DNA of 24,549 nt from a virus, in the IMG/VR virus record IMGVR_UViG_3300048797_000073, positions 1-24,549 of that record, one strand, 5' to 3'. This document shows, piece after piece, positions 16,656-23,711 of the stretch. Position 1 is the first letter of the stretch; the number at the start of each line of letters is the position of its first letter. The translations under genes and the position numbers were made by a program. The notes below the pieces were generated by a model that was given only the letters and a program-made list of their open reading frames with translations, was not told the DNA's origin and did not search any database.

Positions 16656-17963
16656 TTATCCGACTGCTTCCAGCGACCATTCGACGCGGGGTTTGATCGG
16701 GTATTCGAAATGGATGAAATAGCCGGCACCGTCATTCGGGTGGTCATGGCCCGTGGCCTTGTCTGGCTCTCCGTTGGCCGCCCAGGCCTGCTGCTCTAGG
16801 CCGTCGGCGTAAGTGGGGCACAGGAACTCATTCACGAGGTATCGGCGCTGCTTCTGTGCATTGCAGAACATGCCGTTCATGGCGTTGATGCGGTTCTTGA
16901 CGGGCGGGTTGGCCTCTGGGGCACAGACTCGGAACCCGGCTTGCTTCAGCAGCACAATGTCTGTTTCCGAGGCGTTAACGGACTTCCGACTCGCGCCGCT
17001 CGCATCTGGGTAAATGCGAATTTGGCAATTGGACCGGTATTTGCCATCATCAAACTTCCAGAATCGCTCTTTAATCTTCTGGATCATGTCAGGAGTGTCA
17101 TAGCCGTTCACTATCTCGTCTACGGCTCGGGGCAGACCCTCCCGCTTCACATGGACAATCGCAGCCATCTTGCCAACATTGAAGTCCATGCCGATGAACA
17201 GAATCTCTCCGGGGTTGACCGTGTCATCGCAATGGTTCAGGTGCCGATCGTAGGAGGCATAGACGTTTCCCGTCTGGAGATTCACGAACTGGCCGTCGAT
17301 GTAGGCCTTGATCAGGTTCTCCGGGTAGCTCGCCAGCAGCGAGGAGATGTAGTCCTCGGGCAGGTTGGCCTCGTTGTCATAGGTTGAGGACTGCACCATC
17401 CCGTAGAGCGAAGCCAGGGCAGGCTTCTTCTGTGGCTGGCGCAAGAATTGGTCATAGACGAAGCGGAAGCCCTCGGGCGTCGTGGTCACGTCGATCCCAT
17501 TGCGCAGGCCGTCCCGCTTGTAGCGCATGCGGGCGATGATCTTGCGCCAGGCCTGCTGGGCCTTGACGGGGTTCATCACATCAATTTCGTCCACCAGGGC
17601 ATGGCCGATCTTGAACCCGACGATGGACGCAGGGTCCTCCATGGACCGGCAAAGAATTATCCCCAGGAAGATGCGGCCCCGCCACACCTCCACCTCATGG
17701 TTCGCTTGCTTGACGTTCACCCGGAGGCCCCAATCGGCGAAGGCCTCTTCCACGGTGGGGTAGAAAATATCCCGGATTTGAGGGTATGTGGGCGCAAAAT
17801 AGGCCGCATTGATCCTGGGAAACTCATAGAAATGCTTCGCCGCACCGCCGCATCCCGCCCAGGTCTTCCCGGAGCCGAAGCCGCCAACATAGCCCCGGAA
17901 TTTATGGGGTAGGCTCAGAAATTTGGCCTGGGGAATAGTGAGGGTCGGGGCTATGTCGTTCAG
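16656..17963 (-). CDS. terL: Terminase large subunit, ATPase-nuclease, apparent CTG start
   Basis: The motor that packages DNA into the prohead and cuts it. With the start at 17963 the protein has 435 residues: Walker A 'GGFGSGKT' (27-34), Walker B 'LVDEID' (123-128), and RNase H-like nuclease acids Asp260 ('FIGMDFN'), Asp320 ('IYPDASG') and Asp411 in 'HPNDGAGY'. The first ATG/GTG/TTG-type codon in frame is GTG at 17753, which would remove the Walker A. Between the upstream in-frame stop at 18036-18038 and that GTG there is no ATG, GTG or TTG. CTG at 17963 has GGAGG five bases upstream and overlaps the small-subunit stop as CTGA, the same geometry as other junctions. The gene is certain; the start codon is inferred. 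Confidence 0.93.
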   Translation of the reverse strand: MNDIAPTLTIPQAKFLSLPHKFRGYVGGFGSGKTWAGCGGAAKHFYEFPRINAAYFAPTYPQIRDIFYPTVEEAFADWGLRVNVKQANHEVEVWRGRIFLGIILCRSMEDPASIVGFKIGHALVDEIDVMNPVKAQQAWRKIIARMRYKRDGLRNGIDVTTTPEGFRFVYDQFLRQPQKKPALASLYGMVQSSTYDNEANLPEDYISSLLASYPENLIKAYIDGQFVNLQTGNVYASYDRHLNHCDDTVNPGEILFIGMDFNVGKMAAIVHVKREGLPRAVDEIVNGYDTPDMIQKIKERFWKFDDGKYRSNCQIRIYPDASGASRKSVNASETDIVLLKQAGFRVCAPEANPPVKNRINAMNGMFCNAQKQRRYLVNEFLCPTYADGLEQQAWAANGEPDKATGHDHPNDGAGYFIHFEYPIKPRVEWSLEAVG

Positions 17964-19262: not shown

Positions 19263-19519
19263 GGCGTTTTCCTTTCAGGGGGTCGGGGGCCGTGGTGTTT
19301 GGTGGTGTCGGCGTAAGCCATTGCCTTTGCCAGGGGTTCGGGGATGCCGCCGTCGTGGTGCATAATCGCGAACCGTTCGACGCAAAGTTCGTCCCAAGAG
19401 CCGCGATCCATGCGTGTTTTGAGCGTGACGATGGCCGCAGACGCCCTATCGGTGAGACTGGACGTTTGGCGGTTAGCCTGAAATCCAGCAGTGGTGCGTG
19501 TATCCGTAGTTCCAACCAT
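19259..19519 (-). CDS. Hypothetical protein with ER-x-AIM-DGG motif
   Basis: An 86-residue protein. The C-terminal helix 'WDELCVERFAIMHHDGGIPE' followed by 'LAKAMAYADT' is a motif I associate with the ends of phage replication proteins ('ER-x-AI-x3-DGG-x-P-x3-A'), without known function. ATG at 19519 is chosen since AAGGGG lies just upstream and the longer version would begin inside the origin-like spacer. It is the first gene after that spacer. An imperfect hairpin (19526-19544) overlaps its ribosome binding site. Confidence 0.65.
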   Translation of the reverse strand: MVGTTDTRTTAGFQANRQTSSLTDRASAAIVTLKTRMDRGSWDELCVERFAIMHHDGGIPEPLAKAMAYADTTKHHGPRPPERKTP

Positions 19520-19546
19520 CAGTTCGCCCCTTCGTGGAAAGGGCAC

Positions 19547-19555
19547 ATATCCACA
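19547..19555 (+). promoter_or_regulatory. DnaA-box-like nonamer
   Basis: ATATCCACA, one mismatch (first base) from the DnaA box TTATCCACA. It lies in the 100-bp spacer together with a palindrome and iteron-like repeats. A single nonamer can occur by chance; the context raises its weight. Confidence 0.45.
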
Positions 19556-19565
19556 GATGCAGAGA

Positions 19566-19582
19566 CATACACACGTTGTATG
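19566..19582. other. Spaced palindrome, operator-like
   Basis: CATACA, five bases, TGTATG: perfect six-base arms, the form of a site for a dimeric DNA-binding protein. It is intergenic, between DnaA-like box and repeats. It may also fold as a hairpin in RNA. Confidence 0.45.
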
Positions 19583-19600
19583 GGCTGACACGACTGACTT

Positions 19601-19637
19601 TCATTGACTTCATTGAATGTCATTGACATGTCATTGA
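19601..19637 (+). repeat. Four iteron-like direct repeats (TCATTGA)
   Basis: TCATTGA occurs four times, starting at 19601, 19610, 19620 and 19631. The spacing of 9-11 bp places the copies on one face of the helix. They straddle the stop codon of the initiator-like gene, so are partly coding. Iterons near or in an initiator gene are typical of theta-type phage and plasmid origins. Confidence 0.65.
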
Positions 19638-20009
19638 CCCTTCCGCTGCTTTCTTGGACGCACGTTCACGGGCCTTGGCCTCCCGGTTGTATTCCTTCCG
19701 CTCGTCTTCGTTGCGGATCTTGGAATATTTCGAATGGGAAACCACACGGTATTGGAACTGGCCATCCCGAATCAGGCGCCGGCCACCTTCGTCAGGGTTC
19801 CGGCTGAAGGGGTCAGGCTGTTCGAGGAAGGTGATGGCCGTGAGGACCCGATCAACCGGCATTCCGATCATGGCGGCGACTAGGGGCGGGTTGAGTTCGA
19901 CGCTGCCCTTCACCGTCTTGGTGAGGGCGAAGGTCCACACGGCGAACACATCAGGCCCGGCGCCCAACATGGACCCTTCGAACATCGAGGCGAACACTTT
20001 CCCATACAT
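19620..20009 (-). CDS. Winged-helix replication-initiator-like protein
   Basis: A 129-residue protein. The start 'MYGKVFASMFEGSML' and following helices ('VFAVWTFALTKT', 'LNPPLVAAMIGMP', 'RVLTAITFLEQPDPFSRN') form the winged-helix outline of phage replisome-organiser / initiator-like proteins, followed by 'YRVVSHSKYSKIRNEDER' and a very basic, charged helix to the end. The likely role is origin binding or primosome recruitment, supported by the preceding primase and by the iteron-like repeats at its 3' end. ATG at 20009 overlaps the primase stop by one base (TGATG); the longer version starting at 20042 lies in the primase gene. Confidence 0.7.
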   Translation of the reverse strand: MYGKVFASMFEGSMLGAGPDVFAVWTFALTKTVKGSVELNPPLVAAMIGMPVDRVLTAITFLEQPDPFSRNPDEGGRRLIRDGQFQYRVVSHSKYSKIRNEDERKEYNREAKARERASKKAAEGSMTCQ

Positions 20010-20950
20010 CACGCCACCATCCCGGTCTGGGCTTGGCCCCACACGTCGTTCCAGTCATCCCCGGGGTTCGGCGGAATCATGACCTCGACATCGAACCCTT
20101 TAAGCCGGAGCGCCTGGGCCTTGGCAAAAGCCGCCTTTTGGCCCTCAAAGAGCTTGTGCGCATCGTTGTCGCCGAAGATGACGACGCTCTTGACGCCCTC
20201 GGGAGGAACCCATGACAGGATGCCGTTCGCGCTGAGGGTGGACCACACAGGGAGGTTGAAGATCTTTCCGGAGCTGATCGCCGTCTCTACCCCTTCGGCT
20301 ATGCCCAAACGCTCCTGGACCCCTTTCAGCCTCACGGCGGCCCCTTCCAGCGGGCGGCCTGGCATGATCTTCCGCACCGGATCCAGATTAGCCTTATAGC
20401 CATCAGGGGTCAGGTAGGTCCGATGGATCGATACCAACTCCCCGACGGAGTCACGCAAGGAAGCCAGAAGGGCCGGATACCTCAATGGGTTCTGGAGGTC
20501 GTATCGGAGGGATGGGTGATGGGCGAGTCCTGAGATTCCGGTCGGATCTCCACATCGGCGCTCCAGATAGGTCCATGAGGCCGTGCCGGGGGCGAGTTTT
20601 TGGCTGGTGAAACCGAGCTTCTTCAAGGCCCCAACCTTTTCCTGTTCCGACCGTTCCGCCCTGATCTCATCCTTCTGGACGGTGCCAACTAGCCCATCCA
20701 CCTCCCGGGCCGCCGTGGCGAAATCCCAGCCCCGGGCGTTCATCACGAGGTCCATGCCGAGCCCAGGCTTGCACCCAGAGCAGAAGTAGGAACCAGAGCC
20801 GTCCTTATCATCGAAACGAAACCGATCTTTCCCACCACAGAAAGGGCATTTGTGGTGTTTCCCGTCCAGGAATGCAGGGTCAATCCCGAGGGTCGTGATG
20901 ATGCCGCGCCATCGGCCCCGGGCGGCGTCCTTCGTCTTCTCCATGCTCAT
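20009..20950 (-). CDS. DNA primase, zinc ribbon plus TOPRIM
   Basis: A 313-residue protein that should make RNA primers for phage replication. An N-terminal zinc ribbon has Cys35, Cys38, Cys57 and Cys60 in 'KCPFCGGKDRFRF' and 'YFCSGC', the P4-alpha-like primase type. The TOPRIM catalytic part has Glu219 in 'IAEGVETA' and Asp261/Asp263 in 'VIFGDNDAH'. There is no C-terminal helicase domain; the adjacent SF2 gene may not substitute, so a host replicative helicase could be recruited (inference). ATG at 20950 overlaps the helicase stop (ATGA). Confidence 0.92.
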   Translation of the reverse strand: MSMEKTKDAARGRWRGIITTLGIDPAFLDGKHHKCPFCGGKDRFRFDDKDGSGSYFCSGCKPGLGMDLVMNARGWDFATAAREVDGLVGTVQKDEIRAERSEQEKVGALKKLGFTSQKLAPGTASWTYLERRCGDPTGISGLAHHPSLRYDLQNPLRYPALLASLRDSVGELVSIHRTYLTPDGYKANLDPVRKIMPGRPLEGAAVRLKGVQERLGIAEGVETAISSGKIFNLPVWSTLSANGILSWVPPEGVKSVVIFGDNDAHKLFEGQKAAFAKAQALRLKGFDVEVMIPPNPGDDWNDVWGQAQTGMVA

Positions 20951-22638
20951 GCCTTTGTCCTCCTATGGGCAAAGGCAATCTGCATGGACCGGATCTTGTT
21001 CAGGGTGTTCCGGGTGGGCTCGACCGTGGGCGCCGACTGGACGTTGTAGGCCCGGGGCGGCCATTGGCCGGTGATGTCCTTGAACAGGTGGGCCGCCCTG
21101 CCGTTCTGCTTCTCCGGAGAGCTATGCTCACGGGCATAGGTGGCGATCTGGGCATAGAGGTGGATCTGGTCAGGAGCGAGCTTCTTGCCGCCCAGGACGA
21201 CCTCGGCCATTTCCCCGGGCAGATGCTCAACAAGGCTGCTCTTTTCGGGAACGACAAAGCCACAGCCGACGCACTTCTTGCCGCCCATCGGGCTATACCC
21301 ACACTTCGGGCAGGATTTGGGTTCCTTGCCTTCGTCCTTCCTGATTTCCTTGTCCAGCTTTTCGCCGTCATCCAACTTGCTGAGGCCTTCATAGAAAATC
21401 TTGGAGAAGTCATCAGCGAAACGGATGATATTGCCTGAAAAATCAAGCAAAATGCACTCAGTCTTGCCGGTTTCAGTGCTTGCGCGAAGGCCACGCCCCC
21501 ACATCTGAATCGCGGTCGAGAGGGACTTGCGCAAGGGCCGGCAATCGCAGACGCAGCCGATATCCTTCACGTCAAAACCTTTGGCGAGGGCTTCCACGCT
21601 CACCAGCACCTTGATATCCCCGTCCTGGAACCCCAGGAGGATACGGGCCCGGTCATCGTCCTCGGTGTCGGCGCAGAAGGTCGCGGCGGGGATGCCAGCT
21701 TCATTGAACTGGCGCGTCAATTCCTCGCAATGTTTGATGGTGGAACCGAAAACGATGGTTTTGAGGCCATAGGCCAGGCGCGTCCATTCGGTGATCACAT
21801 CCCCGACGATCACCAGTTCCCGTTCCTCAGCGGCCTTGTCCGTCCATTCACCGCCTGCGGTGGCGGCGCCGGCCATGTCGGGCTTCCGGCACGAGAAGAT
21901 CCGCATCGGAACGAGGATGCCCTTGCCGGTGAGTTCGTGCATCGTGGCGGCGTTGACCAGCCGATTGAAGACCTTGCCCATGCCAGGACTGAATGGGGTC
22001 GCGGATAAGCCGATCACAATCGCCTTGCACTGCTTAGATTTGATGTAATCGACCCAGGTCTTATATTGCGCATGGGCCTCATCAATGATAATGACGTCCA
22101 TATCCTCGGGCCATCCGCGCCTCATCAGGGTCTGGCAGCTGGCGATCTGGAATGACCTGGTGATGTCGTACATCGGATTTTGGGCCTGGATGATCCCGTG
22201 GTGACCGAGGCCCACGGCCCGCGCAACCTCGGAGGTCTGGGAAATGAGGGTTTTCCGGTCACACAGGAACATGGCCCGCTTGCGCCGCTTATGCCGCTTG
22301 CGGTTAGCCTTCTCAACCTTCGCGTTCTCTTCGTCGATCTTCTCGTTCACATCCTCAAGGTTCTTGACGACATTGAGGGCCAAAATGGTCTTGCCGGCGC
22401 CTGTGGGGGCCATGACCAGCACCCGGCACATGTCCTGGTAATTCTCCTCGGCTTCAACGGCCTCCCGCTTCGCCTTGGACTCTTCGGTTTCAGGTCCCCG
22501 GGTCAGGGCTTCGGCTTCCCGCTTCTCTTTGCGCTCCCTCTGGGCTTTCAGGGATTCCGCAACAGCGAGGCGGATGGATTCATGGGCCTTGGCCTGGAAG
22601 TCATGCAGGGAAGGAAACTCCCCTTGAAAAAGAGACAT
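20947..22638 (-). CDS. SF2 DEAH-type helicase with C-terminal zinc ribbon
   Basis: A 563-residue ATP-dependent DNA or RNA translocase. Motifs: Q/aromatic region 'LHDFQAKAHE' (11-20), Walker A 'APTGAGKT' (77-84), 'DEAH' (186-189), 'GLSATPF' (210-216), a 'FGST' motif IV region, 'VEALAKGFD' motif V (348-356) and 'QMWGRGLR' motif VI (378-385). A zinc ribbon follows with Cys443, Cys446, Cys456 and Cys459. Two charged insertions, residues about 30-68 and 95-120, enlarge the space around the Walker A and are unusual. It starts by one-base overlap with the ParB-like gene stop (TGATG). The likely role is origin melting or recombination; a UvsW-like activity is one possibility. Confidence 0.92.
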   Translation of the reverse strand: MSLFQGEFPSLHDFQAKAHESIRLAVAESLKAQRERKEKREAEALTRGPETEESKAKREAVEAEENYQDMCRVLVMAPTGAGKTILALNVVKNLEDVNEKIDEENAKVEKANRKRHKRRKRAMFLCDRKTLISQTSEVARAVGLGHHGIIQAQNPMYDITRSFQIASCQTLMRRGWPEDMDVIIIDEAHAQYKTWVDYIKSKQCKAIVIGLSATPFSPGMGKVFNRLVNAATMHELTGKGILVPMRIFSCRKPDMAGAATAGGEWTDKAAEERELVIVGDVITEWTRLAYGLKTIVFGSTIKHCEELTRQFNEAGIPAATFCADTEDDDRARILLGFQDGDIKVLVSVEALAKGFDVKDIGCVCDCRPLRKSLSTAIQMWGRGLRASTETGKTECILLDFSGNIIRFADDFSKIFYEGLSKLDDGEKLDKEIRKDEGKEPKSCPKCGYSPMGGKKCVGCGFVVPEKSSLVEHLPGEMAEVVLGGKKLAPDQIHLYAQIATYAREHSSPEKQNGRAAHLFKDITGQWPPRAYNVQSAPTVEPTRNTLNKIRSMQIAFAHRRTKA

Positions 22639-23711
22639 CAGCCCACCTCGTCAAAGGTCAGGTGGTAGTCGGACTCATCAGGGCGGGTTTCAAGTTCGAG
22701 CTCTTCTTCCGGCTCGGCTTCCAGGCCCTTGGTCTTCCGCTCCAGCAGGTCGAACTTGCGCTTCCAGGACTTGGCAAAGCCCTTGAGCTGGTTCACCTCG
22801 ACCATGAGCCCATCGTTCCGGCTCTTGGTGACCCGGGCCAGTTCCTTGAATTTGCCCACCTCATTCATGAGGGACATGAGGCTGTTGTCGGCCCGCAGAA
22901 TCTTGTCCATGGACTCGTTATCTTCCGTGGCACTGCGCAGAGAACTGGCGAGTTCCCGGTTCTGATCTCGGAGCGCTTCGTTCTCTGCCTTGGAATCAGC
23001 CAGAAGTCGGGTCAGCTCGGAAATCCGGGCGTCCCGGTCATCCTTGGGCTTGGGCGCCGGGGGAACAACGTCCTTTGGGACACTCGGAGACTTCTGGACA
23101 GGGGTTTCCAGTTGCTCCCGGGCCTTGGCCTTCTGCTTCGTTGTGGGCTTGGCGGGAAGATCCTTGGCTGCGTCGATAACCTTGGACCTGGGAGCTGCAA
23201 CCGTACCCTGGGTAACTTCTTGGGCAATTCCGAGCTTGTCTACAGCGGCGGCAAAGGCCCCGTCACGCTGGAGTGTATTTTTAGAAACGCCAAGCTCGGA
23301 AGCCAGTATTTCCGAGGTATTTTTCAAATCCCCACTTTGGGGATTTGCTTCACGTTTCCCGCCCTGGGTTTTCTTCGCTCGATTGTAGATCCGACCTCGG
23401 ATCAGAGACTCAAGATCAGCCGGGAGATTCCGCTGGTGGATGGCGTGGCGGTCGATCCAGTCCAGGGCGGACTCTCGATCCGGCAACGAAACGAGATGGA
23501 CAGCATAAGGCAGGCCGTGCGTCTGGGAAATGGTGTACCGGTGGTGCCCGTCCAGGAGGATGCCTTCTTCCGCCCATACCTTCAGGGGGTCAAGAATCGC
23601 CCCATCGGACAGGATATCGGCTTCCAATCCCTTGAAGGCGTCGGCATTTGGGGCCGGGATACGGTCCCTGAATTCAGGGTCTACTCGAAAGGTGCGCGTC
23701 AATTCGCTCAT
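22638..23711 (-). CDS. ParB/Srx-domain DNA-binding protein with C-terminal coiled coil
   Basis: A 357-residue protein. The N-terminal ParB-like domain has 'ILLDGHHRYTISQTHG' (residues 51-66), equivalent to the CTP-binding GEHRR box, here GHHRY. A helix-turn-helix follows around 'TSEILASELGVSKNTLQRD' (132-150). After a basic Pro/Lys linker (about 185-222), residues 224-330 form a long coiled coil. ParB-domain phage proteins can be DNA-segregation factors, nucleases or regulators; no ParA partner is present. A perfect 9-bp inverted repeat sits inside the gene (23325-23347). ATG at 23711 overlaps the resolvase stop (ATGA). Confidence 0.88.
   Translation of the reverse strand: MSELTRTFRVDPEFRDRIPAPNADAFKGLEADILSDGAILDPLKVWAEEGILLDGHHRYTISQTHGLPYAVHLVSLPDRESALDWIDRHAIHQRNLPADLESLIRGRIYNRAKKTQGGKREANPQSGDLKNTSEILASELGVSKNTLQRDGAFAAAVDKLGIAQEVTQGTVAAPRSKVIDAAKDLPAKPTTKQKAKAREQLETPVQKSPSVPKDVVPPAPKPKDDRDARISELTRLLADSKAENEALRDQNRELASSLRSATEDNESMDKILRADNSLMSLMNEVGKFKELARVTKSRNDGLMVEVNQLKGFAKSWKRKFDLLERKTKGLEAEPEEELELETRPDESDYHLTFDEVG
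23325..23347. other. Perfect 9-bp inverted repeat inside the ParB-like gene
   Basis: CAAATCCCC, five bases, GGGGATTTG. It lies within coding sequence between the ParB domain and HTH. No T-run follows in either transcription direction in the way needed for termination. It may be a binding site or an mRNA structure. Confidence 0.5.

Follow-up and report, generated by a model that had tools for sequence, protein, structure and literature searches.

A probable lambda-type replication origin at the 3' end of a winged-helix initiator gene in an IMG/VR virus record

Phage replication origins are rarely annotated, least of all in uncultured phages. The locus described here raises the question of whether a cluster of short repeats, running across the stop codon of a small gene, marks such an origin, and which part of the encoded protein would read it. 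The window, meaning the whole stretch of 24,549 bases that was analysed, is a 24.5-kb fragment given as an IMG/VR virus record whose completeness is not stated. Its main genes all lie on the minus strand and encode a RusA-like protein, a ParB-like protein, an SF2 helicase, a zinc-ribbon/Toprim primase and a protein of 129 aa. Past the gap that follows the last of these are further minus-strand genes: two small ones (86 aa and 99 aa), a NinB-like gene, the terminase small and large subunits and a Mu-type portal. There is an apparent gap at the large terminase gene, where the frame opens with a codon other than ATG, GTG or TTG and overlaps the stop of the small-subunit gene; at 17753-17963 the listed GTG start falls downstream of the Walker A region, and translation may begin at a CTG in the overlap. 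The genes of most concern here are:

22638-23711, minus strand: ParB-like protein (weak PHROG match)
20947-22638, minus strand: SF2 helicase, its order kept in relatives
20009-20950, minus strand: primase-like protein, zinc ribbon plus Toprim (Pfam and PHROG matches)
19620-20009, minus strand: initiator gene, 129 aa, a winged helix and a long basic C-terminal helix (AF2, family alignment)

The order helicase, primase, initiator is preserved in the related loci L008, L089 and L093, and the primase that an earlier note on this DNA had placed near the repeats does adjoin the initiator gene.

Judging from the sequence, we consider it highly likely that 19545-19640 is a phage replication origin of the lambda type, or the main initiator-bound part of one, situated at the 3' end of the initiator gene. 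The sequence-level evidence comprises repeats, layout, conservation, covariation and a fold model, from which we infer binding, opening and priming. The earlier note had proposed an origin with iterons bound by the adjacent winged-helix protein, with the primase and DnaA at hand. The core of that proposal finds support in positional conservation across a large initiator family, a DNA-first search that landed on initiator genes, covariation between helix and iteron, and the lambda precedent; its DnaA component does not. The features of the segment are:

19635-19736, minus strand: codons of the C-terminal helix, residues 92-125, including KEYNREAKARER (AF2 secondary structure, iteron-class covariation)
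19631-19637, plus strand: iteron 1, GTCAATGAC on the minus strand
19620-19626, plus strand: iteron 2, GTCAATGAC, providing the initiator gene with its TGA stop
19610-19616, plus strand: iteron 3, TTCAATGA
19601-19607, plus strand: iteron 4, GTCAATGAA
19586-19635, no strand: candidate unwinding stretch, joint GC-poorest 50 bp of the window, 36% GC
19577-19590, minus strand: TGTCAGCCCATACA element, found after the iterons in relatives too (L108 TGTCAGCACATACA; L204 and L213 similar)
19553-19570, plus strand: hexamer array ACAGAT-GCAGAG-ACATAC, unit NCAKAN, the sole such triple in the window
19519-19629, minus strand: short ORF of 34/36 aa, tiling the gap with ATGA and TGATG overlaps

On the plus strand, TCATTGA begins at 19601, 19610, 19620 and 19631 (spacings of 9, 10 and 11), and the four copies straddle the stop (19622-19620) of the 129-aa gene, two within its last codons and stop and two just past it. 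It is the only 7-mer with four copies inside 40 bp in the whole 24,549-base window, its cluster ranks strongest across 6.2 kb, and a four-copy 7-mer cluster appeared in 0 of 300 dinucleotide shuffles of the window. The earlier description of four copies with a 9-11 bp period across the stop is confirmed. Read on the minus (coding) strand, the array is GGTCAATGACATGTCAATGACATTCAATGAAGTCAATGAAAGTCAGTCGTGTCAGCCCATACA. As expected of a lambda-type origin, the iterons come directly after the DNA-binding domain of an initiator, in that initiator's own gene.

The 129-aa protein has no match to a Pfam, PHROG (E<0.1) or NCBIfam model, and none to the PF09681 replisome organizer profile, for which the best family member gave E=0.00066. 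An AlphaFold2 model, whose input included 34 family sequences, has a pLDDT of 88; it shows a winged helix at residues 19-89 and, from 92 to 125, a helix of 34 residues, of which the KEYNREAKARER segment is the candidate iteron-reading part. A fold search of the PDB returned generic winged helices only, with RepA and RepE among the weak matches; in BFVD two unnamed matches fell below 1e-3, and the next was a 'Replication initiator protein'. Long relatives (240-300 aa) match PHROGs for replication initiation protein, replication initiation O-like and DnaD-like helicase loader. These matches come chiefly from the region past the winged helix, and the window member ends where this region would start; the C-terminal domain that recruits the helicase loader, present in the long relatives, is absent from the 129-aa protein, which ends at the iterons.

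The nearest relatives are about 30-50% identical to the 129-aa initiator, and no near-identical initiator was found in a close relative. A tblastn search of 50,697 phage records with the winged-helix protein and three relatives gave no match, so the family is nearly confined to uncultured viruses. A single-sequence scan of IMG/VR was likewise empty, and alignment-based scans of the same collection did recover family members; in the class of one host MAG, 2 of 369 genomes match the family. In one contig of a Patescibacteria MAG, two winged-helix initiator copies (L221, L222) lie about 2.4 kb apart. Throughout the family, the basic helix that follows the winged helix looks like the basic region of a bZIP protein (N-x7-R), and GTCA, GTAA and GCAA, the half-sites of the iterons, coincide with those of bZIP. 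This is resemblance alone; profiles lend no support to homology, the best Pfam bZIP match being found in one of 34 members at E=0.18.

The rest of the segment contains both signals and coincidences. The gap after the 129-aa gene is 99 bp, and it is the longest in the right half of the window, as had been noted earlier; it is not strictly non-coding, however, because the 34/36-aa ORF tiles it. The palindrome CATACA-N5-TGTATG is present exactly as described, at 19566-19582, but ten inverted repeats of this geometry occur in the window, and by itself it is unremarkable. Its left part is hexamer array and its right part belongs to a TGTCAGC-CATACA-like element that also follows the iterons in L108, L204 and L213. 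The DnaA-like nonamer, ATATCCACA at 19547-19555, exists as well; it is one of three plus-strand sites in the window within one mismatch of TTATNCACA, which makes it weak as a DnaA box. No excess of DnaA boxes over chance was seen in the window (one single-mismatch site at the segment, three on the plus strand), and no DnaA box recurs in those modules of the relatives that were read. Both palindrome and nonamer, occurring at chance frequency, were accordingly rejected as origin signals, and an involvement of DnaA is unsupported.

The hexamer array fares better. Although it has three units only, the NCAKAN triple matches once in 24.5 kb on both strands, any such triple is present in 3 of 200 shuffles, and the single best window match of the relatives' (GCNTMT)4 consensus is the 19553-19570 zone on the other strand, the figures for these two patterns being somewhat optimistic since the patterns were chosen after the region had been viewed. 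An AT-rich stretch also adjoins the iterons as in lambda-type origins: the joint GC-lowest 50 bp of the window, though just 64% AT. The cumulative GC skew of this 24.5-kb fragment has its maximum at 19933, adjoining the candidate origin, and its sign is the reverse of what a simple bidirectional origin would give.

For comparison, 37 non-redundant relatives were aligned on a PDPxSR...GRR motif. In nearly all of them, short repeats come just after the DNA encoding the basic helix, and a hexamer array follows. The earlier note had suggested looking for the repeats in relatives; they are there, after the winged helix, with a sequence that varies from phage to phage (GTAAC, GTCAAC, GTCAC, GTCCGAC, GTCGC, GCAAC or GTCAATGAC), and the hexamers vary too (GCAGAA, ACAGAT, TGTAGA, TMTGCY and CCTCTG among them). 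In a blind scan for repeats and period 6, which took in about 6 kb at each locus, the stretch past the winged helix was the top site of clustered short repeats in 19/36 loci and the top period-6 site in 28/36, where position alone would give about 1.4 in each case; many of these loci are related or near-identical, and the counts overstate their independence. The same detector recovers the annotated iterons of lambda and a repeat cluster in the TP901-1 rep gene (codon 92).

The hexamer array is in frame in long members, where it is translated into EA, DT, VD, SS, PL or SR dipeptide tracts, and it comes after the stop in the window, L093, L095, L008, L099 and L089. Since it is present in both situations, it is kept as DNA. 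The repeats are likewise read in different frames among the relatives. In L101 and L118 (IMGVR_UViG_3300031259_000021), the same initiator-origin stretch lies close to both contig ends, a repetition that suggests terminal redundancy, an assembly duplicate or two origins.

The layout can also be approached from the DNA, ignoring genes altogether. The query GTCAATGAC-N0-5-GTCAATGAC was run on all IMG/VR contigs and gave 58 matches, 31 of them within initiator genes or immediately past them. With the pair scrambled at constant composition there were 7 matches, 0/7 near a family gene. Fourteen of the loci found with the true pair carry a winged-helix family member, and 18 matches lie inside genes for replisome organizers, a distinct second family, right after the basic helix; once near-identical matches are collapsed, roughly 8 winged-helix and 13 organizer cases are distinct. 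Among the winged-helix loci, the pair is 54-98 nt past the domain in 11, at 323 nt in 2 with an inserted domain, and elsewhere in 1. The inserted domain, of about 80 aa (GFVYYAKDGDRIKIGFSKNPWARVLEL...), occurs between basic helix and iterons in L201 (6485-7588) and L216 (9432-10535), looks T5orf172/GIY-YIG-type and displaces the iterons to that distance; in these two, a mobile element may have inserted itself precisely next to the origin.

Named phages repeat this arrangement, with a winged helix, a basic helix, iterons of the GTAAC or GTCAC type and a hexamer array, in that order. They include Staphylococcus phages phi11, PH15, StB12 and phiIPLA7, Streptococcus phages SM1, phiARI0578 and Javan phages, Enterococcus phage phiEf11 and Oenococcus phage phiS11, and the layout is also found in several Bacillus plasmid-prophages. 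Organizer phages usually have replication helicase or loader genes next door.

With two families in hand, the basic helix can be compared with the iteron that follows it. Counting from a Tyr/His-Arg/Gln pair ([YH][RQ]), residue 0 of the helix is 12 residues further on in both families. Glu-Tyr-Asn at positions -2 to 0 is found in 20/20 members with GTCAATGAC (13 organizers, 6 of the other family and the window) and in 0/26 compared members with GTAAC or GTCAC repeats, the independence of these members being limited by shared ancestry. The match in the window is nonetheless informative, because its winged helix is only about 30% identical to those of other GTCAATGAC members. Members with GTAAC have R at +3 and Q or V at +4, those with GTCAC mostly R-K-Q, and those with GTCAAC Leu or Met at 0. 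The nearest helix across families gives the iteron class in 14/19 cases (permutation 109/5000), against 4/19 for winged-helix similarity; the reverse direction is weaker (14/27 and 9/27, respectively).

These correspondences suggest a broader proposal, plausible but tentative and a little short of probable: in initiators of at least two families, recognition of the origin would depend mainly on the basic helix that follows the winged helix, through a portable residue code (EYN with GTCAATGAC, Y-L/M with GTCAAC, RxQ/V with GTAAC, RKQ with GTCAC), and the conserved hexamer array beside the iterons would be a distinct origin element and would explain the EAEAEA, DTDTDT and YAYAYA tracts.

At the window's proposed origin, the winged helix of the 129-aa protein and the long basic helix behind it would together bind the four GTCAATGAC-type iterons. 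The bound copies might strain the DNA so that the adjacent AT-richer stretch opens, with the hexamer array beside it as a putative unwinding or loading element, and the neighbouring helicase and primase could then start synthesis. The array's place at the end of the gene rather than in the middle can be attributed to the initiator's missing C-terminal half, with whose loss the array would have slipped from mid-gene to gene end; the role of the usual loader may be taken by the SF2 helicase and primase next door.

Initiators that bind iterons can also control their own transcription, and thus iteron binding alone would not prove an origin. An operator, at which the winged-helix protein represses or activates the downstream 86-aa, 99-aa, ninB and packaging genes, is an unlikely reading but the foremost alternative to consider: the repeats do stand ahead of the next gene, and the protein has no helicase-loading domain. 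The long relatives, however, have their repeats inside coding sequence, between the two domains of a protein that matches replication initiators, repeats occupy the same position in the lambda and TP901-1 initiators, and an adjoining period-6 array would not be expected of an operator.

Much less probable is that the gap is simply a 34-36-aa gene coupled to its neighbours, the repeats being merely its codons. Exact tiling with ATGA and TGATG overlaps speaks for such a gene, but nothing homologous to its peptide is encoded in the fetched relatives despite the conserved DNA repeats, and the frames differ among them; the ORF is probably incidental, or there solely for translational coupling. We give slightly less weight still to a partition (centromere-like) site for the ParB-like protein, encoded in the same cluster, even though centromeres are also repeat arrays, since the repeats follow the initiator, organizer phages included, and covary with its helix, and the conserved neighbour is the helicase-primase-initiator block rather than parB. 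An origin at the initiator's 3' end remains the preferred reading.

That origins lie inside phage initiator genes is already known. New here are the hexamer array, a candidate code linking helix to iteron, and the initiator family itself, which is uncatalogued; in open papers we found no description of this family, of a hexamer array as an origin element, of the iteron-hexamer layout or of such a code. The two-part layout recurs in many other phages, including well-known ones in which it has been taken for an odd protein linker. Recurring as it does in an uncatalogued family and in textbook phages, it would allow origins to be called from sequence; if the reading is right, those of uncultured phages could be found and typed by sequence alone, the low-complexity dipeptide tracts of phage initiators would gain a DNA-level reason, and the residue-to-iteron code would be open to a simple swap experiment.

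Several known systems can be set beside this locus. Iteron plasmids have short direct repeats bound by a winged-helix initiator, together with an unwinding region (PMC5043065). The window shares with the RepA/RepE/TrfA type the array of short direct repeats and the winged-helix initiator. Iteron-plasmid initiators have two winged helices, and their origins usually have DnaA boxes; neither is seen in the window. In TP901-1, the origin is inside the rep gene, and the repeat cluster comes right after the winged helix (codon 92), as in the window, but the domain sequence is another and there is no standout hexamer array.

In lambda, the origin sits midway along gene O and combines iterons bound by O with an AT-rich tract that opens (PMC7466680, PMC5043065). 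In both lambda (NC_001416) and the window, the initiator has its DNA-binding domain at the N-terminus, and four iterons occur with an AT-rich tract; the iterons start near codon 117 of O, where the detector's pick is at codon 114, and near codon 124 in the window. Lambda's iterons are 18-19 bp, whereas those of the window are about 9 bp on a 9-11 bp pitch; the same detector found no standout hexamer array in lambda, while the window has one; and the window protein, unlike lambda O, has no C-terminal domain. A profile of its N-terminal part had no significant match to lambda O (hhalign probability 3%), and some long relatives share lambda-O-like C-terminal PHROGs.

A further parallel in layout is with the PF09681/TIGR01714 organizers (phi11, PH15, SM1, phiEf11, phiS11). 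Unlike the window protein, these retain a C-terminal domain, and their origin is within the gene. They share with the window the winged helix, basic helix, iterons and hexamer array, as well as the exact 12-aa distance from [YH][RQ] to helix residue 0, and 18 viral PF09681-type organizers bear the window's very GTCAATGAC pair.
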